A stretch of DNA of 64,000 bases from Ignavibacterium sp. GTDB taxonomy: Bacteria > Bacteroidota > Ignavibacteria > Ignavibacteriales > Ignavibacteriaceae. The position numbers were made by a program, and so were the translations under genes. Positions 46,116 through 64,000 of this stretch are shown here, piece by piece. Under the pieces are notes generated by a model. That model searched no databases. It saw only the letters and a program-made list of their open reading frames with translations, and was not told where the DNA came from. The stretch spans positions 3,167,116 to 3,231,115 of the forward strand of contig JAVSMP010000001.1 in the NCBI GenBank assembly GCA_032027145.1. Reading direction: 5' to 3'. Every line of letters begins with the position of its first letter. Within the stretch, counting starts at the first letter, position 1.

Positions 46116-46148
46116 TTTAATTTATTATTTACTTCTTAAAATTGTTAT

Positions 46149-46673
46149 TTAAACTTTTGCTAATACCTGATATTTTTTTGTCAAAAATTCAAATGTCATA
46201 GACATTGCAATAACAAAGAACATATCTGCAATTAAAGTATTAAAGAAAAATGGAATTGCAGCTACATAACAAGTAATCAATCCGCTAAAAGTATGCGGGT
46301 ATAATATGCCTGCATACCACTCAAAAAAGTTAGTAAGAATAAAAAACAAAGTTGAGGCAGCAATTGACCCTGCAATTAACCATGATACTTTGTTTGACTT
46401 CCGAAGCATTATTCCGATACCCACTATAAGCAGGAAACTTATATAAACTGCGGGAATTAAATAATGAAAACCTATTACAGCATCAGTAATAATCATCACA
46501 AAAACCGGAACAACAAAAGCCAGCTTTTTATCAGCATAATATTTCCCTCCGAATAATGCTAATGCGGCAATAGGTGCAAAGTTTGGAGGATGCGGAATAA
46601 ATCTGACAAGTGCGGCAAGTATTATCATAACTGTAATAACCAGAAATCTCGGTTTAATCAAACTCGAAAACAT
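46149..46673 (-). CDS. Small integral membrane protein (DUF6580-like), possible cobalamin or cobalt transport
   Basis: The 174-residue protein has about five membrane helices. The start 'RFIPHPPNFAPIAALALFGG' followed by 'FVVPVFVMIITDAVIGFH' is the pattern of a small membrane family (DUF6580) that I associate with B12-related neighbourhoods and that resembles the substrate-binding S components of ECF transporters. Identity is from memory of the pattern and not from a search. In this operon, whose lyase needs adenosylcobalamin, a role in cobalamin or cobalt uptake would fit. Other Eut operons do not usually contain it. It lies 30 bases after pduT. Confidence 0.6.
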   Translation of the reverse strand: MFSSLIKPRFLVITVMIILAALVRFIPHPPNFAPIAALALFGGKYYADKKLAFVVPVFVMIITDAVIGFHYLIPAVYISFLLIVGIGIMLRKSNKVSWLIAGSIAASTLFFILTNFFEWYAGILYPHTFSGLITCYVAAIPFFFNTLIADMFFVIAMSMTFEFLTKKYQVLAKV

Positions 46674-46703
46674 TTTATTTCTCCTTTAAGTTATTAGATT
46701 AAA

Positions 46704-47252
46704 TTAAATCCATTGTTTAAGAATTTCTTTCCTTGGAGAAGGAATAACAACTTTGTTAACAAGAAGTCCCTTTTCTTTAATTACATTTACACCAGCATCA
46801 ACTGCGGCTTTAACAGAGCCAACATCACCGGTTAACATCACATAAGCTTTCCCTCCTATAGCCATTGCAAGATAAACAGTAATTAAACTGACCGGTGCTG
46901 CTTTAACTGCTGCATCAGCACATTCTATAATCGAAGCAACTGAAAATGATTCTATAACTCCTAACGCATCTAACTCTTCAATTGCGTTTATTCCATTGAT
47001 AGCTGGAAAAATTGATGGATGAACATTTGGAATTACAAAATGATCAACAATCTCTTCCTGTGCTAACTCAACACCAGTTTCAACACTTGCATTAACAGCA
47101 TCAACATCCCCTCCTATTAACACCATATATTTACCAGGGCAAATAGTTCGGTTAATTATCATCTTAACCTGAGCTCTTTTCAACATTGCATCTGATACTT
47201 CGATTCCTTTTGCTATACTTGATAATTCAACTAATCCAATTGAAGCTTTCAT
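46704..47252 (-). CDS. pduT: PduT-like tandem-BMC shell protein with iron-sulfur cysteine
   Basis: The 182-residue protein carries two BMC domains (~4-85 and ~95-178). It is closely similar to Salmonella PduT throughout. The pore motif 'TICPGKYMVLIGGDV' places Cys38 exactly where three PduT subunits hold a [4Fe-4S] cluster in the centre of the trimer. PduT is thought to let electrons pass through the shell to PduS. The gene lies 13 bases after the PduS-like gene, the known partner. Canonical enterobacterial Eut operons lack both. Confidence 0.93.
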   Translation of the reverse strand: MKASIGLVELSSIAKGIEVSDAMLKRAQVKMIINRTICPGKYMVLIGGDVDAVNASVETGVELAQEEIVDHFVIPNVHPSIFPAINGINAIEELDALGVIESFSVASIIECADAAVKAAPVSLITVYLAMAIGGKAYVMLTGDVGSVKAAVDAGVNVIKEKGLLVNKVVIPSPRKEILKQWI

Positions 47253-47265
47253 ATTCTTGTAACCT

Positions 47266-48606
47266 TTAAGAATTATTTGAAGTTATAATAACACAGTTAT
47301 TTACTATCTCCTTCACTCTGCCATCAATGCTTGAATGAAAAGGAGTAGCTAAAGCATTTCCATTTACTTTACCAATCATCTGTCCTTTTGTAACAACATC
47401 ACCAGGATTAACACAAGGAACTGCATCTCCGCCAAATGTATTTTTCAATTCTATTTTTACGCTGTTTACAGGTGCTGTTTTTACGAAATCAGCTTTGCGG
47501 TCATATTTTTTTATCCCTAATCTTTTATACAAGAAACTAATAGGAATTTCTCTTCCATCTCTAATCGGATGTACATCATTGAATAAAACTTCAAGTTCAG
47601 TTTTTGAAAATCCCTTATTTTCTTTTCTCAGTCTCTTTTTAGTATCGGTACAAATGTTTTTTGGATCAAGTTTTTCAGGGCAGGCAAAAAGTGAACATAC
47701 ATTACACTCACAGCAATTTTGAGCCCAATTACTTAATATATCTTTTTCATCGCCAGTCATTTGCAAGCTTCTCATTACTAAATGAGGCTGTATTGGATAA
47801 CCTAAAATGTAGCGCGGACAAAGTTGAGTACAAATACTGCATTGATCGCAGGCGCTATGACCTATGTTATTATATACTTTAGCCGGAGTGGTTTTTCTTA
47901 CAACTATACTATGATCTTCGGGAAGAACTATAAGTCCGCTTAATGTCTTTGATACTGATAGAGATAAGTCATTCACAACGCTGCCCATCATAACACCGCC
48001 GGTTAAAATAGAAAACCTTTCAACTGCAGCACCGCCGGCAAATTCCAAACATTTTTCATAACTTGTTCCTATGGGAACTTTTATTGTAACAGGATTATTA
48101 ACTGCACCAGCAATGGTCAGATACTTTTCAGTAACCGGAATATCATTTACCGCATTGGTTATATTAATTATTGATTCAACATTTTCAACTACACAGCCAA
48201 CCTGTAACGGAATGCCAAGCGGCGGAATTCTTTTACCGGTTACATCATATACCAATATATATTCATCACCTGCAGGATAAACATTTTCCATAATAAATAA
48301 ATCAATATCATATTTATCTGCTGATGGTTTAAGAATATTAATCAAATCAGAGTTTTTTCTTTTGATAGCAATAGTAGCTTTTGCTGCACCAGTTATACTT
48401 TTTGCAATTATCAATCCGGCAATCAGTTTATCAGCCTCCTGCAGCATTACTTCTCTGTCTTTATAAAGCAGTGGTTCACATTCCACACCATTTGCAATTA
48501 TATGTTCAACATTTGCATCAAGCTTTTTAAAAGCTGGAAATCCTCCGCCGCCAGCTCCAACAACTCCGGCTTGTTTTATTTTATTTAATAACTCTTCTCT
48601 GTTCAT
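47266..48606 (-). CDS. pduS: PduS-like flavin/iron-sulfur cobalamin reductase (RnfC-like)
   Basis: The 446-residue protein has an N-terminal Gly-rich RnfC-like flavin/NAD domain ('GVVGAGGGGFPAFKKLD', 'IIANGVECEPLLYKDREVML'), a SLBB-like segment and two [4Fe-4S] motifs: C253-xx-C256-xx-C259-xxx-C263 and C298/299-x-C301-xx-C304-xxxx-C309. A barrel-sandwich (biotinyl-like) domain closes it. PduS reduces cob(III)alamin to cob(I)alamin for adenosylation and oxidises NADH, probably working with PduT. In this operon it would serve EutT, which makes adenosylcobalamin for EutBC. It lies 16 bases after eutJ. Confidence 0.92.
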   Translation of the reverse strand: MNREELLNKIKQAGVVGAGGGGFPAFKKLDANVEHIIANGVECEPLLYKDREVMLQEADKLIAGLIIAKSITGAAKATIAIKRKNSDLINILKPSADKYDIDLFIMENVYPAGDEYILVYDVTGKRIPPLGIPLQVGCVVENVESIINITNAVNDIPVTEKYLTIAGAVNNPVTIKVPIGTSYEKCLEFAGGAAVERFSILTGGVMMGSVVNDLSLSVSKTLSGLIVLPEDHSIVVRKTTPAKVYNNIGHSACDQCSICTQLCPRYILGYPIQPHLVMRSLQMTGDEKDILSNWAQNCCECNVCSLFACPEKLDPKNICTDTKKRLRKENKGFSKTELEVLFNDVHPIRDGREIPISFLYKRLGIKKYDRKADFVKTAPVNSVKIELKNTFGGDAVPCVNPGDVVTKGQMIGKVNGNALATPFHSSIDGRVKEIVNNCVIITSNNS

Positions 48607-48621
48607 ATTATTTCTACCCGA

Positions 48622-49449
48622 CTAATTTTTTCTATATGATGTTATTGCTAATGGGGTTGAATAAAGAGGATTGCTAGGTAAATATATATTTTTATCAGGG
48701 AAAGCATTTTTAAAAACTTCATCAATTCCGGGATAACAACAAGTTCCGCCGGTTAAAAATATATCATTCACTTTGTAATCAGAAATATGATTTTTAACTA
48801 TGTCAGTCATCTTTTCAAATACAGGCAGTATTATTGGCTTTAGTTTGCCATTAAAATCTTTTCTCTTCATGATTTCAGCATCATCAAAAGATACTTTTTG
48901 ATTACCGGCAATTGTTAAAGTAAGATGAACCCCGCCTGTTGGTTCATCACCAGAGTAAATAATTTCCTTATCCTTTACAATAGAAATACCTGTCGTACCT
49001 CCGCCAATATCAATTACTGCCCCGCTTTCCAGATTAATCAACTTTGCAAAACTTGAAGGTTCATCAACAATCTCGCTTACCTCTAATCCGGCACCTTTAA
49101 TAACATTAACAGAAATATACGGGTCTGTTCCGGGCGGATAAGATGTATTCACTGATTTGATCTCAACACCTAATTTGTTCTCAGCTTTTTTAATCAGCCT
49201 TGATACAATATTTATCGCTTTCCAATAGTCAAGAACAATCCCATCTTTAACTACATCAGCCCATTCAAGAAATGCAGCGGCAACATTATTATTTTCATCC
49301 AGAACAACAACTACAACATCAGACGTTCCAAGATCAACTCCAGCTCTGAAAGTAGAATTGAACTTTACTTTAGACTCATCATTTACAATTTCTTCAATTC
49401 TTCTGATTTGTGAATTAACAAATTCAAATTTTCCGTTGGCTCTCTCCAT
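48622..49449 (-). CDS. eutJ: Ethanolamine utilization chaperone-like protein EutJ
   Basis: The ~275-residue actin/HSP70-fold protein shows the phosphate-1 motif 'FRAGVDLGTSDVVVVVLD', 'WADVVKDGIVLDYW', 'SYPPGTDPYISVNVIKGAGL' and phosphate-2 motif 'GAVIDIGGGTTGISIVKDKE', all as in EutJ of enterobacteria. It is believed to act as a chaperone-like ATPase in the compartment; its client is unsettled. I start at the ATG at 49449; a TTG at 49458 overlaps the eutE stop by four bases and could be used instead. Neither has a clear ribosome site, so coupling to eutE is likely. Confidence 0.92.
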   Translation of the reverse strand: MERANGKFEFVNSQIRRIEEIVNDESKVKFNSTFRAGVDLGTSDVVVVVLDENNNVAAAFLEWADVVKDGIVLDYWKAINIVSRLIKKAENKLGVEIKSVNTSYPPGTDPYISVNVIKGAGLEVSEIVDEPSSFAKLINLESGAVIDIGGGTTGISIVKDKEIIYSGDEPTGGVHLTLTIAGNQKVSFDDAEIMKRKDFNGKLKPIILPVFEKMTDIVKNHISDYKVNDIFLTGGTCCYPGIDEVFKNAFPDKNIYLPSNPLYSTPLAITSYRKN

Positions 49450-49454
49450 TTCAA

Positions 49455-50864
49455 TCAAACAATTCTGAAATGATCAACCAGAGTGCATCTTCTTAACCGC
49501 ACAAAAGTTTTTGCATTTGTTACACCTTCACCAGTCGGAGTTGAGATCGTCATACTTGTCCATCCTTCACCACCAACACCAAGCCCAGCAAGGCAAGGTC
49601 CGTTTTTTACAAACAGGCTTGTATTGATTTCACTTGCCATTCTATGAAGATTATCAATATTTCTTGAGTGCATAGCTGCAGTATGTTTCAATCCATGTTC
49701 AAGCTCAATCCCGATATCAATTGCTTCATCAGCATTACGCGCTCTTATCATTGCAATCACCGGCATCATCATTTCAGTCTGCGGAAAAGGATGATCTTTA
49801 TCAGTTTCTACAAAAAGCAATTTTGTATCTTCAGGAACATTAACTCCAATTGCATCAGCAAGAATCTTAGCATCTTTCCCAACAAATTTTCGGTTCAATA
49901 CCAGATCATTTGATGGATAATTTTTGAACATCAGTTTTGCTAATTCATATGCCTGAGCAAGGCTGATTTCAACAGCGTTGTGTTTTTTCATTTCACGTTT
50001 AAACTCATCAGCAACAGAATCAACTATTACAATTTCTTTTTCATCAACACAAATAATATTGTTATCGAATGACGCTCCGAACACAACTGACTTAGCTGCT
50101 TTTGCAATATCTGCAGAATCATCAATCACCACTGGCGGATTACCGGCTCCTGCTGCAATAAGTCTTTTATCAGTTACTTTTTTTGCTGCACTTATAACTG
50201 CCTCGCCGCCTGTAATGACAAGTAAATTTATTCCCTGATACTGGAACAGATTATTTGCAACTTCAATACTTGGCTCGGCAACAGTAACCATCAGATTTGC
50301 TGGTCCGCCCGCATTTATGACAGCTTCGTTAAGTATTGCAATAGTTCGCTGTGAAGCCGCTTTAGCTGCCGGATGCGGAGAAAATATTATTGAATTACCA
50401 GCAGATATCATACTTATACTATTGTTAATAATTGTAGCAGTTGGGTTGGTTGAAGGAGTAACTGAAGCAATAACGCCCCAGGGTGCATTTTCAACTAATG
50501 TTAATCCGCGATCTCCTGATAGTGCCTGAGGTTCTAAAATCTCAGGACCCGGAGTTTGATTTGCCACAAGTAGATTTTTACTTATTTTATCAGACACTCT
50601 ACCCATTCCGGTTTCTCTTACTGCTATTTCAGCTAGTTCTTGCGAGTGTTTTATAGACGCTTCTCTAATTGTCTTGATAATTTTATGGCGCAACTCCAGG
50701 TTCCTGATTTTCTTTTGAGCATTACTTGCTTCGTAAAACGCTTCTTCAAGAGTTTCAAAAATTCCTATCGGCAGTTTTCCTTTTTTATCATAACCAGGTG
50801 ATTCTTTTAATCTTCGAAGTACACCTTCAACAATAAGGTTTACATCTTGCTTAGTAAGTTCCAT
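49455..50864 (-). CDS. eutE: CoA-acylating acetaldehyde dehydrogenase EutE
   Basis: The 469-residue protein is of the EutE/PduP type. The first ~20 residues ('LTKQDVNLIVEGVLRRLKE') form the amphipathic encapsulation helix found in enzymes placed inside microcompartments. The NAD-binding domain contains 'APWGVIASVTPSTNPTATII', and the catalytic cysteine lies near residue 273 ('FDNNIICVDEKEIV'). It turns acetaldehyde, NAD+ and CoA into acetyl-CoA and NADH; EutG and EutD use its products. It starts three bases after the eutN stop region and overlaps eutJ. Confidence 0.95.
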   Translation of the reverse strand: MELTKQDVNLIVEGVLRRLKESPGYDKKGKLPIGIFETLEEAFYEASNAQKKIRNLELRHKIIKTIREASIKHSQELAEIAVRETGMGRVSDKISKNLLVANQTPGPEILEPQALSGDRGLTLVENAPWGVIASVTPSTNPTATIINNSISMISAGNSIIFSPHPAAKAASQRTIAILNEAVINAGGPANLMVTVAEPSIEVANNLFQYQGINLLVITGGEAVISAAKKVTDKRLIAAGAGNPPVVIDDSADIAKAAKSVVFGASFDNNIICVDEKEIVIVDSVADEFKREMKKHNAVEISLAQAYELAKLMFKNYPSNDLVLNRKFVGKDAKILADAIGVNVPEDTKLLFVETDKDHPFPQTEMMMPVIAMIRARNADEAIDIGIELEHGLKHTAAMHSRNIDNLHRMASEINTSLFVKNGPCLAGLGVGGEGWTSMTISTPTGEGVTNAKTFVRLRRCTLVDHFRIV

Positions 50865-50867
50865 TAT

Positions 50868-51173
50868 TTATTCCTTTAGAATAGGTTCATTTTTAATATA
50901 CACTACCTTACCGTTTGAACGGATATTATCAACTATCCCTACAACATTTAAATCGACAGATGATTTATTGGATAGAGAGACTCTTGCTGAACTTCCCCGG
51001 ACGAGTAATACAATCTCCTCTTCACCGGCACCAATTGTATCAAGTGCTACCTGAGGATTTCCGACTGCAATACCGTTTTCATCAATAGATTTTACCAGCA
51101 AGAGTTTTCCTGCTCCAAGATTTTCTATCTTAACTGTTGCAACAACATTTCCTATTACTTTAGCTAATTCCAT
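50868..51173 (-). CDS. eutN: BMC vertex protein EutN (pentamer)
   Basis: The 101-residue protein belongs to the EutN/CcmL (BMC-P) family: 'MELAKVIGNVVATVKIENLG', 'LLLVKSIDENG', 'VALDTIGAGEEEIVLLVRGS' and 'NVVGIVDNI'. Such proteins form pentamers that close the twelve vertices of the shell. Length agrees with family. It lies three bases upstream of eutE and 71 bases after the second eutM. Confidence 0.95.
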   Translation of the reverse strand: MELAKVIGNVVATVKIENLGAGKLLLVKSIDENGIAVGNPQVALDTIGAGEEEIVLLVRGSSARVSLSNKSSVDLNVVGIVDNIRSNGKVVYIKNEPILKE

Positions 51174-51244
51174 AGCATTACCTACACTTTCTTACCGAAG
51201 TAATATTATTAAACACTTAAATTAAAACAGATATTCTGTTATAA

Positions 51245-51532
51245 TTATTCTATTGGAGTTTTAACAGATATTTTAAAAATATCTTCAAGATCTCCGTGAG
51301 GTCTTGGTATTACATGAACAGCAACAAGCTCTCCGATTCTTTGAGCAGCAGCTGCACCTGCATCTGTAGCAGCTTTACAAGCGGCAACATCACCTCTTAC
51401 TAATGCTGTAACAAATCCGCCGCCAATCTGTTGGTAGCCGACTAATTTAACTCTTGCAGCTTTTACCATTGCATCTGATGCTTCGATTAAACCAACAAGA
51501 CCTTTTGTTTCTATCATTCCTAAAGCTTCCAT
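51245..51532 (-). CDS. eutM: BMC hexamer shell protein EutM, second copy
   Basis: The 95-residue BMC-H protein: '[20 protein letters not shown]', '[20 protein letters not shown]' (pore loop GGG) and '[19 protein letters not shown]', near identical to EutM/PduA. Six copies form a flat hexagon with a small central pore that admits substrates. It differs from the copy just upstream mainly in its first half and in a slightly longer end ('[12 protein letters not shown]'). The C-terminal coding half is almost identical at DNA level to that copy (51282-51400 versus 51588-51706). Confidence 0.95.
51282..51400 (-). repeat. Near-identical repeat inside eutM copy 2
   Basis: This 119-base stretch matches 51588-51706 with only two differences, while the remaining halves of the two genes are clearly more divergent. 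It codes for the BMC helix after the pore loop and the C-terminal strand. Confidence 0.85.
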
Positions 51533-51565
51533 TGTGTTTCCCTTTCTATTAATAATTTATTTTTA

Positions 51566-51838
51566 TTATAATTTAATTGAATAAACGTCTTCAAGATCTC
51601 CGTGAGGTCTTGGTATTACATGAACAGCAACAAGCTCTCCGATTCTTTGAGCAGCAGCCGCGCCTGCATCTGTAGCAGCTTTACAAGCGGCAACATCACC
51701 TCTTACCAGTGCTGTAACATAACCACCGCCTATTTTCTGCCATCCGACAAGTTTAACTCTTGCGGCTTTTACCATTGCATCAGAAGCTTCTATCAACGAA
51801 ACCAATCCTCTGGTTTCAATCATTCCTAATGCTTCCAT
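51566..51838 (-). CDS. eutM: BMC hexamer shell protein EutM, first copy
   Basis: The 90-residue BMC-H protein: '[20 protein letters not shown]', '[20 protein letters not shown]' (pore loop GGG) and '[19 protein letters not shown]', ending '[12 protein letters not shown]'. I start at the ATG at 51838, which has an AGGAGA ribosome site and the universal MEALGMIE start; the frame is open further upstream into the eutD gene but that extension has no BMC character. It is the main facet protein with its tandem copy 33 bases downstream. Confidence 0.95.
51588..51706 (-). repeat. Near-identical repeat inside eutM copy 1
   Basis: Partner of 51282-51400: 117 of 119 bases are the same. The offset is 306 bases, equal to the spacing between the two eutM genes. 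Confidence 0.85.
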
Positions 51839-51872
51839 TTTATCTCCTGTTTTATTGTGAAATAATAATAAT

Positions 51873-52853
51873 TTAATTTTCAATACATGAAGCGATAACA
51901 GTGGTATTAACAATATCCTGCCAGCTGCATCCACGTGAAAGATCATGCATTTGTTTTTGAAGTCCTTGTATAAAAGGACCTAATGCCAAATAATTACCAA
52001 GTCTTTCTGCAATTTTATAACCGATGTTACCTGCCTCCAAAGATGGAAATACAAACACATTTGCATCTCCTTTAATTCTTGAATCGAGAGCTTTCTTTTT
52101 TCCAACTTCCGGAACCAAAGCTGCGTCAAACTGAAGTTCACCATCAAAGATCATATCAGGATATTTTGATGATAACAATTTTACTGCGTTTTTAATTTTT
52201 TCTGTTGATGGATGGTCAGCACTCCCTTTTGTTGAAAACGACAGCAATGCAGTTTTGGGTATATTGCAAGTAATACTTTTATAATTCATAGCTGATGAAT
52301 ATGCAATATCAGCTAACTGATCGCTTGTTGGCTCAGGAATTACGGCGCAATCTGAAAATGAATAAATAGTATTTCCATCAGGACTAATCATTAAAAAGAA
52401 ACTCGATACCGTCTTTATTCCATCTGGCATTCCGATTATCTGAATGGCTGATTTTAATACATTTGCAGTTGTTGAAAGATTTCCTGCAATACAAATATCA
52501 GCACTCTTTTTTCTAACAAGCATTGCGGCATAATTAACTGGTTCCAGAATTAATTTTTCCGCTTCTTCAAGTGTCATTCCTTTATGTTTTCTAAGTTCAT
52601 AAAAGGTAGAAGCAAAACTTTTAATGTCAGGACATTGTGCCGGACTATTAATGTTTATACCCTTTGTTGAAATCCTGTATTCATCAGCTAAATCTCTTAT
52701 TTCAAAAGGACCGCCGATTAATACCGGAACTGCCAAGCCTTCATCAGCTAAATATCTGGCAGCTTTAAACACACGCTCATCCTTTGAGTCAGGAAACACA
52801 ACTCGTTTAGGATTTTCTTTAATCTTTAGTTTACAAGTTTCTATTAAATTCAT
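51873..52853 (-). CDS. eutD: Phosphate acetyltransferase EutD
   Basis: The 326-residue protein is a short-form phosphotransacetylase: '[20 protein letters not shown]' at the start, '[20 protein letters not shown]' and '[20 protein letters not shown]' with '[20 protein letters not shown]' at the end. It converts acetyl-CoA and phosphate to acetyl-phosphate and frees CoA for EutE inside the compartment. Length equals that of E. coli EutD (338) closely. Start overlaps the eutT stop by four bases (ATGA). Confidence 0.94.
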
Positions 52854-53680
52854 TTTATCTCTTCAATTACCTGGTCTAATTTTTTTCCTTTATCTGAAAC
52901 AAGAATCATAATCATAACAATATATAAAGCGCTGCTTAATCTGTTAAGCGCTCTCATAATATCCGGTCTTAAAACATTTAATGAAGAATCTATATACAAG
53001 TTTGCTGCAATCAACTCTGCTTCTCTAACCATTGATCTGAGATAATTTAACAATGCGATCCACTTGCCATGGCTTAACTCTGGAACAATATGATCGTGCC
53101 CCAGATATTTTAACGGGTTATGAGATATTTTCCTGATTGCATCATCCGAAAAATCGCCCATAAATATCGGGTCAATATTCTCATCTTTAACTTCAGCTTT
53201 AAGTACATTACCCATATTAGATCTTATGTCAGCAAGAAATCTTTTGATGATCTCAGGTCCGTCATAATTAACAAATTCATTTTGCACCAGCACAGCATAA
53301 GAAATCATACTATCCAGTTTACCTCTGAAGGCAATCCGTGGATGATTTTTTGGCACCAGATGGTTTGAATCCAGCCAGGTCAATACATCTGATTTTGTTT
53401 CAATTTTGTTATTGCACAAACCACAATAAAGAGCATCCGGTCTCTGATCAGAAGTTGTAAGCGGATGAACCTTCTTTTCTTTACCAGTATCATCACCAAA
53501 GCTATTTTTAACAAAAACTTTCCCCTGCTCATCAATATATTTAACTGATATTTTTCTATCACTTAGGTATTGAGAAGCTGATGGTGTCAGTCTTGTATTA
53601 TAAGGCAAATGAATTTCAGTGCCCCAGGTAAGACTGAATTTTTCTCTAAGTTCTGTTTCTGTTAAGAATTTATCATTCAT
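52850..53680 (-). CDS. eutT: Cobalamin adenosyltransferase EutT
   Basis: The 276-residue protein aligns over its whole length with enterobacterial EutT: 'LTWGTEIHLPYNTRLTPSAS', 'VKYIDEQGKVFV', 'MGDFSDDAIRKISHNPLKYL', 'GHDHIVPELSHGKWIALLNY' and 'LNRLSSALYIVMIMILVS'. It transfers the adenosyl group of ATP to cob(I)alamin to make the EutBC cofactor. The metal motif, HX11CCX2C in enterobacteria, reads here H72-X13-C86-X2-C89 with Tyr at the first Cys of the pair, so one ligand candidate is missing. It lies 12 bases after eutQ. Confidence 0.93.
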   Translation of the reverse strand: MNDKFLTETELREKFSLTWGTEIHLPYNTRLTPSASQYLSDRKISVKYIDEQGKVFVKNSFGDDTGKEKKVHPLTTSDQRPDALYCGLCNNKIETKSDVLTWLDSNHLVPKNHPRIAFRGKLDSMISYAVLVQNEFVNYDGPEIIKRFLADIRSNMGNVLKAEVKDENIDPIFMGDFSDDAIRKISHNPLKYLGHDHIVPELSHGKWIALLNYLRSMVREAELIAANLYIDSSLNVLRPDIMRALNRLSSALYIVMIMILVSDKGKKLDQVIEEIK

Positions 53681-53692
53681 ATAATTCTCAAA

Positions 53693-54388
53693 CTATGCAG
53701 ACCAGTTAGCCGGATAAGTTACATACATAATTTTAGTATAACTTGGAGTGCCAAATATTATTTTACTTCCTTTTGGTATGTAAAAAATATCACCTTGCTT
53801 TCCGGAAAACACCTGTCCATCAATTGTAATCTCTAATTCACCTTCAATAACATAATCAACTTCATCATAAGTTAATTCCCATGGAAAGGAATCTTCTTTT
53901 TTCCAGGACATAATTCCTGCAGACATAGGAGATCCATCCTGATAGGTAATCACATCCAGCAGATTTACATTCTTATCTTTACCTGCATCTTCAAATCTTT
54001 TTAATTTTATCGAGTTACCCTTAATCACTTTTAATCCGTTAGATGCCTTACCTGAAATATATCCGGTATCAACATTACAGGTTGTTGTATTTTCCCTTCC
54101 GAGATACTTACATACAATCGCTGTTATTTCATCTTTGCTGTATTCAGAATTACCAAGTTGCGAAATTATTTTATCAACAATAACAGTGATTAACTCATTT
54201 GATGTTTTGTCAAAGTCATCAACAGGACTTGCAGAAACAGGGCTGCAAAAATTAAACTTTATATTGTACTTCTGGGCTAAATCTCTTGCTTCAGATGTTA
54301 TTATAGTATTTTTATCATCTACATAAATGTATTTTAGCCCGTCACTGTGGCATTCTTTAACAATATTGGCAGAGATTAATTTTTTCAT
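53693..54388 (-). CDS. eutQ: EutQ, cupin-fold acetate kinase
   Basis: The 231-residue protein begins 'MKKLISANIVKECHSDGLKY', continues with an N-terminal region of ~100 residues, and has a C-terminal cupin (~125-228: 'AGIMSWKKEDSFPWELTYDE', 'DYVIEGELEITIDGQVFSG', 'GDIFYIPKGSKIIFGTPSYT'). EutQ of Salmonella is an acetate kinase that makes ATP from acetyl-phosphate and is needed for compartment formation. The cupin Glu residues in 'TYDEVDYVIEGE' are kept. It lies 38 bases after eutP. Confidence 0.93.
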   Translation of the reverse strand: MKKLISANIVKECHSDGLKYIYVDDKNTIITSEARDLAQKYNIKFNFCSPVSASPVDDFDKTSNELITVIVDKIISQLGNSEYSKDEITAIVCKYLGRENTTTCNVDTGYISGKASNGLKVIKGNSIKLKRFEDAGKDKNVNLLDVITYQDGSPMSAGIMSWKKEDSFPWELTYDEVDYVIEGELEITIDGQVFSGKQGDIFYIPKGSKIIFGTPSYTKIMYVTYPANWSA

Positions 54389-54426
54389 GTTTTTCTCATC
54401 TATCTAAATTGATAAAAGTATTTTTA

Positions 54427-54876
54427 TTATTCTTTACTAAGAAACTCCCTGAGTTTATCTATTGAGTTTTCAGAATAAATTGAGACTTTAAATATTTCTC
54501 CTTCGATCCCAAAATCTCTCAGAATTTCTTCTACAGCATCTATATTTGCATCAGGTAAATCTGTTTTTGAAATTACACCAACTAATCTTTTTGAATTATA
54601 AATCTGAAATAAACCATGCGGCAGTTTTCTTTCAATAGAATTTGAAGGATGAACATAAATGATTGTATCAATATCCGACATAGTTTGAATTATTGCCGAG
54701 TAAAGTCTTGGACTATCAAAATATTCACCAGGAGTATCAACAGTTTTTTCGTTATGATAAACAAGTGCCTGTGTTTTCAGAGCTTCATCTTCAATACCCA
54801 ACAACATATTAAACAGTGATGTTTTACCAACACCTACTCCACCTATTAAAATGAAGTTTGTTAATTTGTCAGTCAT
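54427..54876 (-). CDS. eutP: EutP, P-loop acetate kinase/GTPase-like
   Basis: The ~149-residue protein is a small GTPase-fold P-loop protein: Walker A 'ILIGGVGVGKTSLFNMLLG', the switch segment 'VDTPGEYFDSPRLYSAI' and 'IIYVHPSNSIE', then 'VGVISKTDLPDA' in place of NKxD. EutP/PduV proteins have acetate-kinase activity in some firmicutes and a proposed role in moving compartments. I start at the ATG at 54876, which overlaps the eutS stop (TAATG); an ATG seven codons upstream (54897) is in frame and possible. Neither has a strong ribosome site. Confidence 0.9.
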   Translation of the reverse strand: MTDKLTNFILIGGVGVGKTSLFNMLLGIEDEALKTQALVYHNEKTVDTPGEYFDSPRLYSAIIQTMSDIDTIIYVHPSNSIERKLPHGLFQIYNSKRLVGVISKTDLPDANIDAVEEILRDFGIEGEIFKVSIYSENSIDKLREFLSKE

Positions 54877-55235
54877 TATGTTATCGTCAACTTGCATGGT
54901 GTATAGTTTAACAATTTTTCTAATTTATCATTTACCATTTTTAATGATTCTTCAACAGCTCCAACAGAGCCGTATATAACAAGTGCACCGGTAAATCTGT
55001 CTAAAAAACCTATCTGAACTTCAGCAGCTTTTAATGCAATATCGCCGGCAATAATGGCTGTTTCACCAGGTGTTAATGTCATTATCCCAATTGCATCTAC
55101 AGCAGGAACACCGATTTTTTTACAAAGCTCCTGCCCAGGATGAGCAATTAAGTGTGCAAGTGTTACCTGCTTGCCGGGAACATATTCCTGAATAATCCTT
55201 TCTTTATTAGAAAATAAATTTTCCTGTTCAGACAT
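54876..55235 (-). CDS. eutS: BMC shell protein EutS (bent hexamer)
   Basis: The 119-residue protein matches E. coli EutS almost residue for residue: '[20 protein letters not shown]', '[20 protein letters not shown]', '[20 protein letters not shown]' and '[10 protein letters not shown]'. EutS is a circularly permuted BMC-H that forms a bent hexamer thought to build shell edges. It has ~9 extra N-terminal residues ('MSEQENLFS') before the conserved KERIIQE, a likely lumen-facing or outward tail. Start overlaps the stop of the parA-like gene (TAATG), stop overlaps eutP. Confidence 0.95.
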
Positions 55236-55993
55236 TAGTAAATCCTCATCAATACTTCTTTTGCAAGATTCATATAATCCAGTGATCCTTTGGCACCGGG
55301 AAAATATTCAATTACAGTTTTACCATTATTATATGCTTCTATAAGTTTACTATTAACACTGATTGTACTATCAAATAACTGATCACCAAAGTTTTCTTTT
55401 AGTTGATTAAAAACCTCTTCAGATAATTTTATTCTTCTGTCAAAATATGTGGCAAACAGACCCAGTATCTTTAACTCAGAATTAAAATAGCGTTTAACTT
55501 TATCAACAAGTTCAATAGTTATATACAAACCGGAAAGAGCACTATATTGCACCTGAGCAGGTATCAGCACATAATCTGATATTGACAATGAATTAAAAAC
55601 CAGATTACCCATATTTGGCGGGCTGTCAAAAAGAACAAAATCATATTCAGAATCAAAGTAGCTTCTTTGCAGTAATTGTTTTTCTTCTTCATCATTTGCT
55701 ACTTCCTGATAGAAATCTGATAGAAGTCTTTCAGAGGGAATAACATCAAGGTTCTCTGAGTATTTCTGAGTATAACTTTTCAGGTTTTTATTTTTATCAA
55801 TTATAAAATCACAGATAGTAAGAAACTTCTTTTTAGTTTTATCAAATCCTAAATGAATAGAAGCCGATGCCGAAGAATCAAGATCAACAAGAAGAACTTT
55901 ATTCTTAAGCAAAGAGATACAATATGCAAGGTTTACTGCACTTGTAGTCTTTCCTACTCCGCCTTTATTATTTAGAATTACAACTAATTTCAT
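55235..55993 (-). CDS. ParA/McdA-type ATPase within the Eut operon
   Basis: The 252-residue protein is a ParA/MinD-type ATPase. The deviant Walker A is '[14 protein letters not shown]' (signature Lys10, Lys15), A' is '[14 protein letters not shown]', and Walker B is '[14 protein letters not shown]'. No helix-turn-helix precedes it, so it is the short form that works on the nucleoid, as in McdA, which spaces carboxysomes. It overlaps eutK upstream by four bases (ATGA) and eutS downstream (TAATG); such tight packing between two shell genes argues for a role with the microcompartment, not with plasmid or chromosome partition. No ParB or known McdB is next to it. Canonical enterobacterial Eut operons lack it. 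Confidence 0.88.
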
Positions 55994-56553
55994 TTCATTA
56001 TAAAATATTTGTTACCTGCTTTTTCAATCAGATTATCATCAATCATTTTCTTTAGTATTTGTCTTAATTTATCTCTGTCGATTCCGGTTTTTTCAGATAA
56101 TAAATCAAGTGTCAATCCCTTAGAAGATTTTACCAAATCAAGAATATCCTTTTCTGAATCTTTTTCTGAATCCTTTTTCTTACTAACCGATTTCTTCTTT
56201 ACAACTGCCTTTTTTGACTCTGATTTAACAGGAATTTTCTCCTCTATCTTCCCAGCTATAAAAAGATTTACTAAATGATCAGTATCTTCAAACGGTCTGG
56301 CAATTACATTTGATGATAATAATTCTCCCACTTTCATTGCTGCTTCTTTACCAGCTTCAACTGCTGCTATACAGGAAGCTAAATCTCCTTTAACAACAAC
56401 AGTTACTAATGCGCCGCCGATTCTAAAATGGTTAATCAGTTTTACTTTGGCAGCTTTTACCATTGCATCAGAAGCTTCAATTGCACCTACAAAAGATCTA
56501 GTTTCTATAAAGCCTAAAGATTCACCGTAAATATTTTCTGTTACATCAGCCAT
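55990..56553 (-). CDS. eutK: BMC shell protein EutK with C-terminal winged-helix domain
   Basis: The 187-residue protein has one BMC domain (~10-92: 'SLGFIETRSFVGAIEASDAM', 'VKAAKVKLINHFRIGGALV'), a Lys/Ser-rich linker (~105-130) and a C-terminal helix-turn-helix of ~55 residues ('GLTLDLLSEKTGIDRDKLRQ', 'ILKKMIDDNLIEKAG'). This is the layout of E. coli EutK, whose C-terminal domain is a likely nucleic-acid binder. The basic linker (many Lys in 107-128) strengthens that expectation. The stop codon overlaps the start of the ParA-type ATPase. In E. coli, eutK lies at the operon end instead. Confidence 0.92.
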   Translation of the reverse strand: MADVTENIYGESLGFIETRSFVGAIEASDAMVKAAKVKLINHFRIGGALVTVVVKGDLASCIAAVEAGKEAAMKVGELLSSNVIARPFEDTDHLVNLFIAGKIEEKIPVKSESKKAVVKKKSVSKKKDSEKDSEKDILDLVKSSKGLTLDLLSEKTGIDRDKLRQILKKMIDDNLIEKAGNKYFIMK

Positions 56554-56564
56554 TTAAATAATCA

Positions 56565-57236
56565 TTATTTTACATGTAACTTATAACGAATCGGATAATC
56601 AGCTACCTCCAGCACTGCTTCCTGAAATGCATCACAAGCTGCTTTACATGCTGCCTGTGTTCCGGTTAATAGTCCACCAGAATAGTTTGTTTCAGATGGC
56701 GGAGCAAACCAGGATTTTATTTCAACATTTGCTCTTTTAAGTGCAAGGTCCAGCGCATAGTTAGCTTCTAACGGCGGCGCGATTAAATAAGCTAAAGATT
56801 CACCTGGATTTATACCAGCAACCTTTGATAAATATGTTCCGGTCCTGGAAATAAGATGTGGGAAAAATGTAATTGTATTATCTTCATTTGCAGAATACCA
56901 GATAGCTTCGTTTTTAATGTATTGAATGGCTGCATTTAATCCTGCTTCAACTTCGCCCGGTGTTGGTCCAGATAACATAGCAATTATTTCACCGGATAGT
57001 TTACCTGAAGCGTGTGCTGAACCAGCATAAAACGATTTAGCATAGATAACTTCAACATCAGCCATTTTAGTTGCTTCGTCTATTGCTACATAACAAGCAT
57101 CATCTATGTCACAAGTAAGAAGACCCAAGCTGCGATGTTCTTGTGGCATGTTAATCTGTTTTGAAAGTCCTGCATCAACTGAAGAAATTAGCCTGACAGC
57201 CAAAACGTTTGCTATAATTTGATCTAATTTTGCCAT
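56565..57236 (-). CDS. eutL: BMC shell protein EutL (trimer, tandem BMC)
   Basis: The 223-residue protein matches EutL in length and along the chain: 'MPQEHRSLGLLTCDIDDACY', 'AKSFYAGSAHASGKLSGEII', 'SRTGTYLSKVAGINPGESLA', 'LIAPPLEANYALDLALKRAN' and 'NYSGGLLTGTQAACKAACDA'. EutL is two circularly permuted BMC domains; trimers have a large gated central pore, and ethanolamine binding closes it. It lies 16 bases after eutC and 11 bases before eutK. Confidence 0.95.
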   Translation of the reverse strand: MAKLDQIIANVLAVRLISSVDAGLSKQINMPQEHRSLGLLTCDIDDACYVAIDEATKMADVEVIYAKSFYAGSAHASGKLSGEIIAMLSGPTPGEVEAGLNAAIQYIKNEAIWYSANEDNTITFFPHLISRTGTYLSKVAGINPGESLAYLIAPPLEANYALDLALKRANVEIKSWFAPPSETNYSGGLLTGTQAACKAACDAFQEAVLEVADYPIRYKLHVK

Positions 57237-57252
57237 TGCTTTTCCTGATTCC

Positions 57253-58155
57253 TTATGAGTTATTTGATAATTTAATTCCGCTTGCCTTATTGGCTAACAT
57301 CTTCTTAACAAGATCTACAATAACCGCAGATGCTTCTACCGGCGGTGTTCCTTGTCTGTGAATATTAGAAATAACTGTTCTGTCTGATTCAACAGTTGTG
57401 GCAACTGAAGGTTTGTAAATCATATACGAGCTCATACTTTCAGACTGACCAAGACCCGGTCTTTCACCAATTAGAAGTACTATCACATCAGCATCCAATA
57501 GTTCACCAATTTCATCTTCAACTTTTACTCTGCCGTACTTTACAAAAAACGGTGTTCCAACATTTATTCCAGCTGATTCAAACCCCTTTAATAATGGAGG
57601 TAAGATTTCATCATAGTTCATTGTAAGTGCATCAGTGCTTAATCCATCTGATAGAACAATTTGCACCTGCGGATTTTTCTTACACTTTTCTTTAATTGTC
57701 TGTATCGCTTCTTCACTAAGCTTTCTTCCTAAATCCGGTCTGGTCAGGTATTCGTCTTTATCCTGAATTTTTGTTTGAACCATGAACAAGCCGGTTTTTT
57801 TAACCCACTCTTCCGGAACCTCTTTAAAGACAGTATCGCGCGAAAGTGAATGATCGGCAAGAAATCTTAACAGAGTATTTGTACGTGGACGTGGACCAGC
57901 GTGTCCAACGCATACTCTGGCATTTGTTGATTTTCTGATCTCTTTTACTGTTTCAAAATTTTTTGCATGATCAAGCCCAATCCAGGCTTTACATTCATCA
58001 CCAGTTAAATCAGGTAAAGCTTCACCAATATTGCAGGCAGCAGCAGCAGTTGTACCTGAAGGTGCAGTATTAACAGCTTTTTTTGAATCAGAATTATCTT
58101 TCTTAATTTCTTTAAGAACAGCTTCAACTAATTGTTCAATTTGTTTATTGTCCAT
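57253..58155 (-). CDS. eutC: Ethanolamine ammonia-lyase small subunit EutC
   Basis: The 300-residue protein (E. coli: 295) begins with an amphipathic encapsulation helix ('[17 protein letters not shown]'), then an Ala/Thr/Ser linker. The core contains '[20 protein letters not shown]', '[20 protein letters not shown]', '[20 protein letters not shown]' and '[20 protein letters not shown]'. With EutB it forms the (EutB-EutC)6 enzyme and holds the lower side of adenosylcobalamin. It lies 16 bases after eutB. Confidence 0.96.
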
Positions 58156-58170
58156 CTTTTACTTCCTTTC

Positions 58171-59532
58171 TTATGAAAAAATTGATGGATCACCAGCAAT
58201 AGCTGTTAATTTTCCATCTGCCATTAAACCCATTTTCTCCATCCACTTCTCATACTCAGGGCAAGGGCGGAGATTTAACAGTTGTCTTACAGTAGCTGCA
58301 TCATGAAAACTTGTTGTTTGATAATTAAGCATTATATCATCGCCCATAGGTACACCCATAACAAAATTGCAGCCGGCAGCAACAAGAAGAACAGTTAAAT
58401 TTTCAATTGTGTTTTGATCTGCATCAGCATGATTAGTATAACAAGCATCAGCACCCATTGGTATGCCGGTTAGTTTACCCATAAAGTGATCCTCAAGACC
58501 AGCGCGTGTTATCTGACGACCATCATATAAATATTCAGGGCCTATAAATCCAACTACGGTATTAACCATAAATGGTTTATATCTTTTTGCTAATCCATAG
58601 CATCTTGCTTCCAATGTAACCTGATCAGCGCCAAAATGTGCATCTGCTGAAAGTTCAGCGCCCTGACCAGTTTCAAAATACATCATATTAGGTCCAGCTA
58701 TTTTACAATAGTGCTTGCCTATTTCATAAGCTTCATCAAGCATTGCAACCGAGATTCCAAATTCATTATTACCTTTTTCTGATCCGGCAATACTTTGGAA
58801 TATCAGACCTGCAGGAGCACCATCCTTGATTGCTTTCATTTGGTTGCTAACATGAGCCAATATGCAATTTTGTGTTGGTATCTGATACTTCTGAATAATT
58901 TCATCAGTTGCAATTAATAACTTCTTAATATTTTCAGGAGTATCAATAACAGGGTTGATGCCGATTACAACATCACCTGAGCCATAGGCAAGACCTTCAA
59001 ATATCTCTGCTCTTATGCTCTTTACATCATCGCGGGGATCATTTGGCTGCAGTCTTTGTCCAAATGTACCCGGTAATCCGACAGTTGAATTAGCTTTAGC
59101 TACAACTCTGATTTTCTTACCGGCATAAATTAAATCCATATTCGACATCAACTTGGCTGCAGCAGCCACCATTTCTGATGTTAAACCTCTTCTAAGTTTT
59201 TCAATATCTTCGTGCGTAGTCGAATCAGAAAGGATATACTCACGAAGTTCTCCTACAGACCAATTTTTTATCTGACTATAGAATGTTTCATTAACTGAAT
59301 CCTGGATAACCCTGGTTACCTCATCTTTTTCGTAAGGAACTACAGGATTATTTCTCAAATCAGCTAAAGTTAAATTACTCAGGACGTACTTTGCTGCAAC
59401 TCTTTCCTGAGATGTTTCGGCAGCAACACCGGCTAACACATCCCCCGAGCGTTGTTCGTTGGCTTTAGCCAGAACATCTTTTACATCCTTGAAAGTATAA
59501 TTTTTTCCGAACAATTGAGTATTTAATCTCAT
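58171..59532 (-). CDS. eutB: Ethanolamine ammonia-lyase large subunit EutB
   Basis: The 453-residue protein (E. coli: 453) contains the substrate barrel. Diagnostic stretches are 'TFGQRLQPNDPRDDVKSIRA', 'EGLAYGSGDVVIGINPVIDT', 'FETGQGAELSADAHFGADQV' (substrate-binding Glu and Gln) and 'ITRAGLEDHFMGKLTGIPMG'. It splits ethanolamine to acetaldehyde and ammonia by a B12 radical mechanism and is the entry step of the pathway. It lies 19 bases after eutA and 16 before eutC. Confidence 0.97.
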   Translation of the reverse strand: MRLNTQLFGKNYTFKDVKDVLAKANEQRSGDVLAGVAAETSQERVAAKYVLSNLTLADLRNNPVVPYEKDEVTRVIQDSVNETFYSQIKNWSVGELREYILSDSTTHEDIEKLRRGLTSEMVAAAAKLMSNMDLIYAGKKIRVVAKANSTVGLPGTFGQRLQPNDPRDDVKSIRAEIFEGLAYGSGDVVIGINPVIDTPENIKKLLIATDEIIQKYQIPTQNCILAHVSNQMKAIKDGAPAGLIFQSIAGSEKGNNEFGISVAMLDEAYEIGKHYCKIAGPNMMYFETGQGAELSADAHFGADQVTLEARCYGLAKRYKPFMVNTVVGFIGPEYLYDGRQITRAGLEDHFMGKLTGIPMGADACYTNHADADQNTIENLTVLLVAAGCNFVMGVPMGDDIMLNYQTTSFHDAATVRQLLNLRPCPEYEKWMEKMGLMADGKLTAIAGDPSIFS

Positions 59533-59550
59533 TGTTTATACCTCTTCATT

Positions 59551-60987
59551 TTATGGAAACGCTAGTGACTTAATTGTTAAGGGAACTATTTCACCGCCAA
59601 AATAACTTTTACCGATATCAATGTAATCTCCTTCATAAGAAACTACCTCATCAATAATTGCCAGTGGATGAGATTTCAGAGATGCTGAAAGCTCCATCCC
59701 CAACACCTTTCCAATATCATTAAAAGCTAAAATTATAACGGGTGAATTGTCTTCTTTTCTATGTTTATTTAATACAGTAATTAATTCCTCTGCACATTTT
59801 TGAACTGCTCTGTAAGTAACAGGAATTTCTTTGGGAAGATAAATTGCATATTCATCATTAGATAAACTAACATCCATTATTTTTGCTGCCTCCTCAATTC
59901 CATAGGACAATGATGAATTTGTATCGTTCCAATCGAAGTGAGGATGAAGCACCGGTAGATTACGCAGAGGCAAATTTTCTGCAGTTAACCATATCGTACT
60001 TCCGCTTAATGATAAAGTATATGCACCTGCTCCTATAACTGTTGCTCTTATAGTTTGATTAGGTTCAATTACATTAAATTTTCTCAATTTATTGTTTTTC
60101 ATTAAAGCTTCTGCCAGTAATACACCAATATCTGAAAATTGAAATCTGTCTTTTGCCATTTCATCAAGTTTGTAGTAACACTCGCCAACACCGCCTGATA
60201 GAAAAACAGCGCTAAAAGTATATTGCTGCTTTAACGGATTTGTCTGCAGTAATTCGTTAGCTAAAGGAGATACATTATTACCTTCTATACATTCAATTAT
60301 CAAATCTGCCATTACATCACAAATAGATTTAATATCATTTAGAGAAAGTGAATCGTAATCTTCGTGAAAATTTGGAATAATGCTTTTCAATATCTTCTTA
60401 ACAGGTTCAGTTATTTTTGTAACCTTGCCGTTTCTATCTGTTTGGATTAATCTTCCGCCTACATTCAAGCAACAAGAATCTATGATTCTGCCGTTTCTAA
60501 AAACAGCATAATTAGAAGTTCCACCACCGATATCAATATTCAAAACAGTTGTTGTATGATCTTCAGAATAAACAGAGCTTCCTGATCCTCGTCCAGCAAT
60601 TACTGATTCGAAATGCGGACCAGCAGTTGCAACAACAAAATCTCCCAAATCACCAGCTAATTTCATCAGTGTTGCTTTGGCATTTTTTGCTTTTGAAGTT
60701 TCACCGGTTATTATGATTGCACCGGTTTCAATTTCTTTCAATCCAAAGCCAGCTTTTTTGTATTCATCTAATACCATATCCCATAATTTTATATGATCGA
60801 TCGATCCATCAGAGTTAAATGGAGTAAATAGAATTTTACCTGTATAAAGAATTTTCCTATCTACAAATTCAAAGTGTGGGACTTGAGTGGGTGCTGCAAT
60901 ATTCCTCAGCACTAGAGATGAAAATATGACCTGTGTAGTAGTAGTACCAACATCAATCCCCACACTATTTATAACCTTATTGCTCAA
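59551..60987 (-). CDS. eutA: Ethanolamine ammonia-lyase reactivase EutA
   Basis: The 478-residue actin-fold protein matches EutA along its length: 'SVGIDVGTTTTQVIFSSLVL', 'GAIIITGETSKAKNAKATLM', 'DFVVATAGPHFESVIAGRGS', 'VLNIDIGGGTSNYAVFRNGR', 'VFLSGGVGECYYK' and 'GAGAYTLSLSGSTIWL'. It swaps damaged cobalamin out of the lyase using ATP. The start is uncertain: the frame opens at a TTG (60987) with no good ribosome site. Two ATGs lie ~20 bases upstream in another frame, separated from the TTG by a run of eight A. Loss of one A would join them to EutA. Confidence 0.93.
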   Translation of the reverse strand: MSNKVINSVGIDVGTTTTQVIFSSLVLRNIAAPTQVPHFEFVDRKILYTGKILFTPFNSDGSIDHIKLWDMVLDEYKKAGFGLKEIETGAIIITGETSKAKNAKATLMKLAGDLGDFVVATAGPHFESVIAGRGSGSSVYSEDHTTTVLNIDIGGGTSNYAVFRNGRIIDSCCLNVGGRLIQTDRNGKVTKITEPVKKILKSIIPNFHEDYDSLSLNDIKSICDVMADLIIECIEGNNVSPLANELLQTNPLKQQYTFSAVFLSGGVGECYYKLDEMAKDRFQFSDIGVLLAEALMKNNKLRKFNVIEPNQTIRATVIGAGAYTLSLSGSTIWLTAENLPLRNLPVLHPHFDWNDTNSSLSYGIEEAAKIMDVSLSNDEYAIYLPKEIPVTYRAVQKCAEELITVLNKHRKEDNSPVIILAFNDIGKVLGMELSASLKSHPLAIIDEVVSYEGDYIDIGKSYFGGEIVPLTIKSLAFP

Positions 60988-63440: not shown

Positions 63441-63480
63441 TGTAGCTCTCCTCTGTTTAGTTGAATTGAAAAAAGAATAT

Positions 63481-64000
63481 TTAATTAGATAATTTATTTT
63501 TGGGTGCAACAATCATTGCAACTAAAATAGCAGTAACTCCTGCTGTTAGTTTTCCAACCATCACCGGAAATATCATATCCGGTTTAACTGCGGCTGTAAA
63601 ACCAAGATGATCTCCTAAAGTAAATGCAGCACTAACTGCAAATGCAATATTAATTACCTTCCCGCGCTCATCCATATTACTTAAGATTTTGAACATTGGA
63701 ATGCAATTAGCAAGCGTGGCAATAAACCCAACAGCTGAAACTTCGCTCACTCCCAGTTTTATTCCCAGTTTTGTAAGTGGTTTTTTAAACCATTTGGAAA
63801 CAAGATAAACCATTGGATAAGCGCCGGCTAGAATCAGTGCAATTCTGCTGACTACTTCGAGTGCCCTGATATCTATCCCGGGTGTATCTCCAATAATAGG
63901 AACAATTGGTTCGAGACCTGGTATCAATGGAATTCCTGTCAATGTTTCAAAAACAATTGAAGCTAATCCTATTGTAATTAATGCCACTAATATTTTTGCG
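63481..64000 (-). CDS. eutH: Ethanolamine transporter EutH, N-terminus beyond window edge
   Basis: The visible 173 residues are the C-terminal part of a ~400-residue membrane transporter. They include 'ISRTALILAGAYPM'-like helices ('VVSRIALILAGAYPMVYLVS'), 'GFIATLANCIPMFKI' and 'AAFTLGDHLGFTAAVKPDMI', followed by 'MVGKLTAGVTAILVAMIVAP', as in EutH. A GTG at 63987 is not the real start because homology continues to the edge. EutH moves ethanolamine across the inner membrane by facilitated diffusion. It is the first Eut gene seen here; the operon promoter lies outside the window. Confidence 0.9.
   Translation of the reverse strand, partial: AKILVALITIGLASIVFETLTGIPLIPGLEPIVPIIGDTPGIDIRALEVVSRIALILAGAYPMVYLVSKWFKKPLTKLGIKLGVSEVSAVGFIATLANCIPMFKILSNMDERGKVINIAFAVSAAFTLGDHLGFTAAVKPDMIFPVMVGKLTAGVTAILVAMIVAPKNKLSN

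Follow-up and report, generated by a model that had tools for sequence, protein, structure and literature searches.

The genome of Ignavibacterium sp. (assembly GCA_032027145.1, contig JAVSMP010000001.1) carries a gene for a ParA-type ATPase, parA, inside an ethanolamine utilization (eut) operon, directly downstream of eutK, which encodes a shell protein of bacterial microcompartments (BMCs). We found the operon in a stretch of 64,000 nucleotides, which we call the window. The eutK-parA pair belongs to two types of operon, EUT operons and a signature-less microcompartment operon. We consider it probable that this ParA, derived from the Soj lineage, positions metabolosomes on the nucleoid, with the shell protein EutK as its built-in adaptor. 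(Literature is cited by PubMed Central accession, for selected parts of each source.)

The eutK-parA pair in two lineages

We read 23 members of this ParA clade. One is the window's own copy, and the other 22 are 46–93% identical to it. All 23 come from five genomes of the host's order and 18 of Calditrichota. In the host's order, ParA was sought in 59 of 164 genomes (the host's own included), and strong matches came from G000, G002 (93%), G005 (90%), G004 (68%), and G048 (57%, from another family); the next-best matches listed in the same search were at 39% or below. Across 40 Calditrichota genomes, sampled from the phylum of G164, a ParA profile gave 18 strong matches (E = 4.1e-136 to 1.2e-100), and the next best was at 5.1e-59. 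A scan of genome contigs, which finds short exact peptides only, was selected on NNKGGVGK, and kept the best 80 matches, returned two Calditrichota loci at 52% identity (L036 and L037, both among the 18) and then nothing above 38%.

EutK, with a BMC-H domain, a linker, and a winged helix, is encoded directly upstream of ParA in all 23 loci. The spacing between the two genes runs from -4 to +47 bp, and they overlap by 4 bp in 12 of the loci. The gene after parA is eutS in all five loci from the host's order; in Calditrichota it is either a short open reading frame (ORF) similar to the N-terminal part of EutQ (14/18) or eutD. The gene upstream of eutK is EutL in the host's order and mostly a divergent ORF in Calditrichota, where the order is EutK-ParA-(EutQ-N-like)-EutD-EutM-(EutM)-EutE-(EutJ)-(PduS)-(PduT), with brackets for genes that we did not see in every locus. 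None of EutA, EutB, EutC, EutL, or EutS was among the matches in the fetched stretches of the 18 Calditrichota loci (eutS was not sought genome-wide), and EutL was not found genome-wide in the two Calditrichota genomes tested. Because the enzymes and the upstream and downstream neighbours all change, EutK is the only immediate neighbour of ParA that is common to all loci. An earlier reading of the window, made from the sequence alone, had linked this ParA to the microcompartment and named EutK as a candidate adaptor; the constant adjacency bears out the link and favours EutK as the protein that ParA would contact.

The sequence-only reading had offered EutS, with its extra N-terminal tail, as a second candidate adaptor. 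We rejected EutS in this role because the 18 Calditrichota loci retain eutK-parA and eutS was not among the matches in their fetched stretches. As for the tail, the extra residues are present, but there are only about 8–9 of them and they are acidic or polar.

The main alternative partner for ParA is the N-terminal domain of EutQ. On this account ParA still positions the compartment but directly contacts a different protein of the operon, most probably that domain, and EutK does no more than link the shell to DNA. We think this unlikely. The short ORF after parA in most Calditrichota loci does match EutQ-N (phmmer scores of 22–50 bits), Salmonella EutQ forms a bridge between shell and cargo (PMC12487888), and the basic N-terminal residues used by known partners (PMC12204374) have a counterpart in the window's EutQ, which begins with MKKLI. 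However, eutQ is the third gene past parA in the host's order, eutD follows parA by 2 bp in L167 with no EutQ ORF in between, and EutQ is an inner bridge of shell and cargo. E. coli EutQ also begins with MKKLI, and its eut locus has no ParA, which counts further against EutQ.

Two side observations concern the Calditrichota loci. Those numbered L152–L167, along with L036, encode an aldehyde dehydrogenase (AldDH) and Pta, mostly with PduS and PduT. We noticed no aldehyde-producing enzyme near them (flanks of a few loci, by eye). Also by eye, a promoter-like conserved stretch, TTG(A/C)TTGTA...TTTGTTTAATTTA, lies ahead of eutK-parA in L155, L156, L157, L158, L161, and L162.

In a phylogenetic tree of ParA sequences, the 23 clade members are split from all other rows by a branch whose Shimodaira-Hasegawa-like approximate likelihood ratio (SH-aLRT) support is 100. 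The tree holds 102 of 136 rows, including 40 of the 74 rows outside the clade and the Soj group (taken in list order), and several of its long background branches are placed unsurely. A ParB-like ORF lies alongside ParA in none of the 23 clade loci, as compared to 37 of 38 Soj loci (a set that includes L002, the source of the query) and 6 of 78 loci with other, more distant ParA proteins. The earlier reading would have been refuted by homologues of this ParA lying mainly next to parB; among the close homologues, this check came out in its favour. Among plasmids, 280 records matched, all at less than 60% identity, and the best listed was at 37.7%. Elsewhere, the host genome encodes an ordinary Soj that is followed by a ParB gene (L002; ParB identified by Pfam), so the window's ParA is an extra one. 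Judged by its ratio of nonsynonymous to synonymous substitution rates (dN/dS), which is 0.06–0.19 for six pairs among four genomes of the genus, the window's parA is under purifying selection.

Could parA be a stray plasmid or chromosome-partition gene that ended up in the operon and does nothing for the compartment? Its fold and sequence are indeed Soj-like. Against this stand its constant place next to eutK across 23 loci from two lineages, its own fully supported branch, the low dN/dS, the separate Soj-ParB pair, and the low identity of the plasmid matches, and we regard a stray gene as very improbable. Chance or a plasmid relic was rejected on the adjacency, the tree branch, the plasmid identities, dN/dS, and the ParB counts. 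As a side observation, the host genome has a further ParA-family gene (L003, C1:893779-894519), and there was no ParB among the ORFs printed beside it.

The pair also co-occurs across genomes, as the earlier reading had proposed to check. Full-length EutK (E ≤ 4.8e-60, reaching profile position 186) is found in exactly the same 18 of 40 Calditrichota genomes as ParA. Another 11 Calditrichota genomes have only BMC-H stretches, which end at or before profile position 124. In two of these 11 (G177 and G178), the pair is apparently cut at contig ends, and we counted them apart: the edge of L266 holds a ParA tail of 53 codons, and the edge of L267 holds an EutK start of 82 amino acids. A profile search found no clade ParA in the remaining nine genomes (surroundings were fetched for five). 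In the host's order, five of 164 genomes have EutL, the very five that carry eutK-parA; the genus members G001 and G003 have neither EutL nor the clade ParA.

More broadly, we found the clade ParA in 2 of 395 genomes sampled from the host's phylum and in 2 of 243 from its class (the same two genomes). There were none in 297 genomes from the phylum of G168, 198 from the phylum of G169, or 199 from the phylum of G174, samples that had no positive control. For many genomes in these samples, first-look candidates were scored only in part (for instance, 9 of 35). The spread may be understated, because the draws from the host's phylum and class show no match for the carriers G002, G004, and G005.

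Predicted properties of ParA and EutK

The ATPase matches Pfam family AAA_31 (E = 4.2e-43). K10, K15, D37, D39, and D123 are invariant in the 23 copies, and the deviant Walker A motif (KGGxGKT) is intact. The nearest solved structures by profile are Soj/ParA proteins (8ray, E = 1.3e-48; 1wcv, E = 2.5e-45), and Cyanothece McdA (6noo) scores 1.2e-16. In a fold search with Foldseek, the top ten hits were Soj/ParA chains, including 9a6n (template modelling score of 0.92) and 2bek, with query-based scores (TMq) of 0.87–0.92; McdA ranked 11th. R187 and K216 are invariant in the 23 copies and align with arginines of Soj, at sites that we take to be Soj's positions for binding non-specific DNA. By sequence, then, this is a Soj-like ParA with an intact Soj-type ATPase sequence and a predicted ATPase activity. 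The sequence-only reading had called it McdA-type, which did not hold up: we rejected membership in McdA of the cyanobacterial type on the profile, the signature lysine, and the fold rank (proteobacterial McdA was outside the comparison).

The motif N[STN]KLxEA distinguishes the clade: it is present in all 23 copies, in 0 of 39 Soj-group rows, and in 0 of 74 other rows. At the same site, 31 of the 39 Soj-group rows and 1 of the 74 others have RNxRxSEA. We also considered the 10-residue Walker A string as a diagnostic motif and dropped it, because 52 of the 74 other rows carry it and the contig scan had been selected on NNKGGVGK.

EutK matches the Pfam BMC family (E = 3.5e-24), with weak matches to HTH_24 and MarR_2 at residues 132–179. 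Its BMC-H domain superimposes on EutM from C. difficile (4axj) with Z = 18.4 and a root-mean-square deviation of 1.3 over 89 residues. In an AlphaFold model built from 15 sequences, the predicted local distance difference test (pLDDT) score exceeds 90 for most blocks of the BMC part and is 81–93 in the C-terminal part, which has the elements H-H-H-E-E (H127-143, H149-156, H160-172, E176-179, and E182-185). The net charge of the linker is positive in 22 of 23 loci. A profile of the EutK family aligns across both domains of E. coli EutK. Within the winged helix, the motif K.[LM][MIL]D...[IV]EK is kept in 23/23 loci, and the single E. coli EutK that we compared has EQLFSAGTLRK.

The window's EutK does not reach the cut-off of the NCBIfam EutK model PRK15466 (85.6 versus 218 bits), so we call it EutK-like. 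Pfam's EutK_C is matched at E ≤ 0.01 by 4 of 15 aligned members, and the window's protein is not one of them. A sequence look-up in PDB with the C-terminal domain by itself gave only weak matches (best 0.076), and fold searches of PDB with EutK were taken up by the BMC domain. Our call of a winged helix is therefore based on Pfam, on the secondary structure of the model, and on how the protein aligns with E. coli EutK. On this modelled basis, EutK is a BMC-H domain followed by a linker and a winged-helix-like domain, much as the sequence-only reading described it (a shell domain, a Lys-rich linker, and a winged helix).

A winged helix also suggests a different role for the pair. ParA and EutK might be a regulatory or assembly pair, in which the winged helix binds a DNA site (for operon autoregulation, or a parS-like site), ParA modulates this, and compartments are not spaced at all. 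The C-terminal domain of EutK does resemble the HTH_24, MarR, and IclR families, and plasmid ParA proteins can regulate their own operons, which counts for this account. Also, by our reading, 12 of the 18 Calditrichota loci have a divergent ORF ahead of eutK (in four the ORF is on the same strand, and in two the contig ends), which puts eutK first in those 12. However, by eye the upstream sequences share only the promoter-like element and no dyad (no dyad search was run). Searching the window for a parS consensus, with up to 3 mismatches, gave 0 matches, which is weak evidence as just 0.48 were expected by chance. The phenotype of eutK deletion in Salmonella is positional (PMC12487888). We judge such a regulatory or assembly pair to be improbable, about as much so as EutQ as the partner.

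Proposed positioning through EutK and what weighs against it

If ParA does position the compartments through EutK, the mechanism might be as follows. ParA would be a nucleoid-binding ATPase that was recruited from the Soj lineage for microcompartment spacing, and its ATP-bound dimers would coat the nucleoid. EutK hexamers embedded in the shell would present their linkers and winged helices outside the compartment; this outward orientation is assumed by analogy. Shell-bound EutK would bind ATP-ParA, trigger ATP hydrolysis, and free ParA from the DNA, and the compartment would track the resulting ParA gradient by a diffusion ratchet, as in McdAB or ParAB. EutK would thus take the place of a separate adaptor such as McdB or ParB. 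For the host organism, we infer positioning by ParA, direct contact between ParA and EutK, and the outward orientation of EutK. In Salmonella, Eut BMCs are mostly polar and more static when eutK is deleted, and the authors suggest that EutK may behave as ParB does or may join it (PMC12487888).

Several observations weigh against this proposal. First, known partners of ParA and MinD bind via basic N-terminal residues (PMC12204374), and EutK opens with its BMC-H domain, has no basic N-terminal peptide, and carries its basic residues in the internal linker. Contact with ParA through the linker or the winged helix is therefore an assumption. Second, E. coli has a winged-helix EutK and no ParA in the operon, so EutK must act in some way without ParA. 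Third, Pdu compartments of Salmonella were not mislocated when minD or a plasmid parA was lost (PMC12866334). Fourth, the co-occurrence counts are phylogenetically non-independent, and other operon genes travel along with the pair; for these reasons, the changing neighbours are a stronger argument than co-occurrence.

Finally, most of the eut loci sampled in other lineages lack ParA. In Bacillota (the phylum of G167), EutL is present in 27 of 348 genomes, and we fetched 31 stretches that include all 32 places with EutL, some of them cut by contig ends. None of the 31 contains a match to the ParA profile (E ≤ 1e-3) or to a winged-helix profile (E ≤ 0.1; as a positive control, E. coli EutK scores 0.0058). 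A eut stretch from Sebaldella (L265) has neither match at the same thresholds. Judged by these controls, eut operons do not in general carry the eutK-parA pair.

These control stretches showed something else. The 32 of them (L234–L264 from Bacillota, and L265) encode 17 BMC-H proteins of over 160 amino acids, of which 16 end in a motif that by eye is Rho_N/SAP-like (LRRLAR...ISRANKEVLIKEI; examples are L234:10383-10907 and L254:3560-4150). Pfam's Rho_N matched 4 of the 9 that were scanned, all under the cut-off, with a best E value of 5e-4. Perhaps this is a different nucleic-acid-binding tail that replaces the winged helix of EutK.

We hold a more specific idea more tentatively, and lean slightly against it: that the system is distinct from McdAB in that a structural subunit of the shell is itself the ParB or McdB, that its outward winged helices touch nucleoid DNA and drive a Soj-derived ParA, and that the module serves unrelated types of metabolosome (EUT and signature-less). 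If a shell subunit is the ParB or McdB, the compartment would behave like a plasmid without a centromere.

Operon layout and comparison with known systems

Features of the operon are listed in the table. Gene names come from the ORF list and family scans, and eutB, eutC, eutD, eutM, eutE, eutJ, and eutG were named by their match to E. coli eut genes. The product of eutS matches Pfam's BMC family and is above the cut-off of NCBIfam's EutS; the PduS-like gene encodes a flavoprotein, and the PduT-like gene encodes a shell protein. As the sequence-only reading stated, the ORFs place parA inside the eut operon, overlapped by eutK at one end (4 bp, ATGA) and by eutS at the other (1 bp, TAATG), all on the minus strand.

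Table. Coordinates in the window of parA, its neighbours, and the mapped domains and motifs
Feature	Coordinates	Strand	Evidence
parA, 252 aa: ATPase of the microcompartment-linked clade, Soj-like with deviant Walker A	55235..55993	-	
eutK, 187 aa: shell protein (BMC-H) whose C-terminal domain is a winged helix; proposed ParA adaptor	55990..56553	-	
ParA deviant Walker A, residues 8-17, signature Lys10	55943..55972	-	in 23/23 copies
ParA NSKLIEA motif, residues 214-220, at site of Soj RNxRxSEA	55334..55354	-	
EutK BMC-H domain, residues 12-87	56293..56520	-	PF00936 3.5e-24
EutK disordered Lys-rich linker, residues 101-127	56173..56253	-	pLDDT <50 at 102-128
EutK winged-helix-like domain, residues 128-185	55999..56172	-	predicted model + profile alignment
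eutS, 119 aa, overlaps parA in the window; not found in Calditrichota loci	54876..55235	-	
eutL, adjoins eutK on its upstream side	56565..57236	-	TIGR04502 1.2e-102
eut operon A-B-C-L-K-parA-S-P-Q-T-D-M-M-N-E-J-(PduS-like)-(PduT-like)-(174-aa ORF)-G	44952..60987	-	

Two relatives from the genus have an identical eut gene order (L168 and L171). In E. coli K-12, the eut blocks are inverted in order: S-P-Q-T-D-M-N-E-J-G-H comes first, followed by A-B-C-L-K-R, with a prophage between eutA and eutB. In the window, parA is at the junction of the block that ends in K and the block that starts with S. There is no parA in the eut locus of E. coli K-12, which agrees with the earlier statement that enterobacterial Eut operons lack this gene.

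Three genes upstream of eutA, all on the minus strand, are possibly involved in ethanolamine supply: the C-terminal part of an EutH permease (63481-63987; Pfam EutH, 2e-55), an ORF that has no Pfam match and looks porin-like by eye (62337-63512), and a HAD-type hydrolase (61062-62318; 2e-07).

That ParA genes occur in BMC loci is already known, as are putative McdAB systems of other BMCs. ParA (PF01656) is listed among ancillary genes of BMC loci (PMC4207490), putative McdAB systems have been reported in BMC operons (PMC8262871; also PMC11321042), and a review places mcdAB-like genes near EUT and PDU operons (PMC13052382). What appears to be new is that the adaptor would be a shell protein: literature searches, which did not cover supplements, turned up no account of a ParA together with a winged-helix EutK. 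The idea of a ParB-like EutK was joined with ParA, as speculation, in PMC12487888. Sections of PMC8262871 and PMC13052382 call the placement and inheritance of microcompartments other than carboxysomes open. In Salmonella, EutK and PduK affect placement, and the sources cited here for them identify no motor. The eutK-parA pair is a natural two-gene system that encodes a putative motor next to its candidate shell adaptor, which opens the question to direct tests. The pair is also a possible engineering route to spacing synthetic compartments.

Like McdAB, the pair has an ATPase of the ParA superfamily in or beside a microcompartment operon, with a proposed role in nucleoid-based spacing of organelles. 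Unlike McdAB, its ATPase is nearer to Soj/ParA than to Cyanothece McdA, and it has the signature lysine that is missing from McdA of S. elongatus (PMC6328274). Nor did we see an McdB-like gene next to parA in any of the 23 loci, in line with the sequence-only reading (no search was made for an McdB located farther away in the genome); here a subunit of the shell would serve as the adaptor. With Soj-ParB (ParABS), the window's ParA shares its fold, the Walker motifs, and conserved basic residues at putative DNA-binding positions. In contrast to Soj, the clade has no ParB-like ORF alongside, is linked to a shell protein, and has NSKLxEA where most Soj-group rows have RNxRxSEA.

The EutK of Salmonella and E. 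coli (EUT1) has the same architecture as the window's, and in Salmonella Eut BMCs are mislocated when it is missing (PMC12487888), but the E. coli locus has no ParA and the winged-helix motif differs. PduK likewise joins a BMC-H domain to a C-terminal extension, and without it Pdu BMCs stay polar, although the relevant parts of that paper name no ParA partner (PMC9132943). The MIC locus of Caldithrix abyssi has AldDH, a pta-type phosphotransacylase (PTAC), and PduS but no signature enzyme, as in our Calditrichota loci; the sections of PMC4207490 that treat it do not discuss an EutK-ParA pair.

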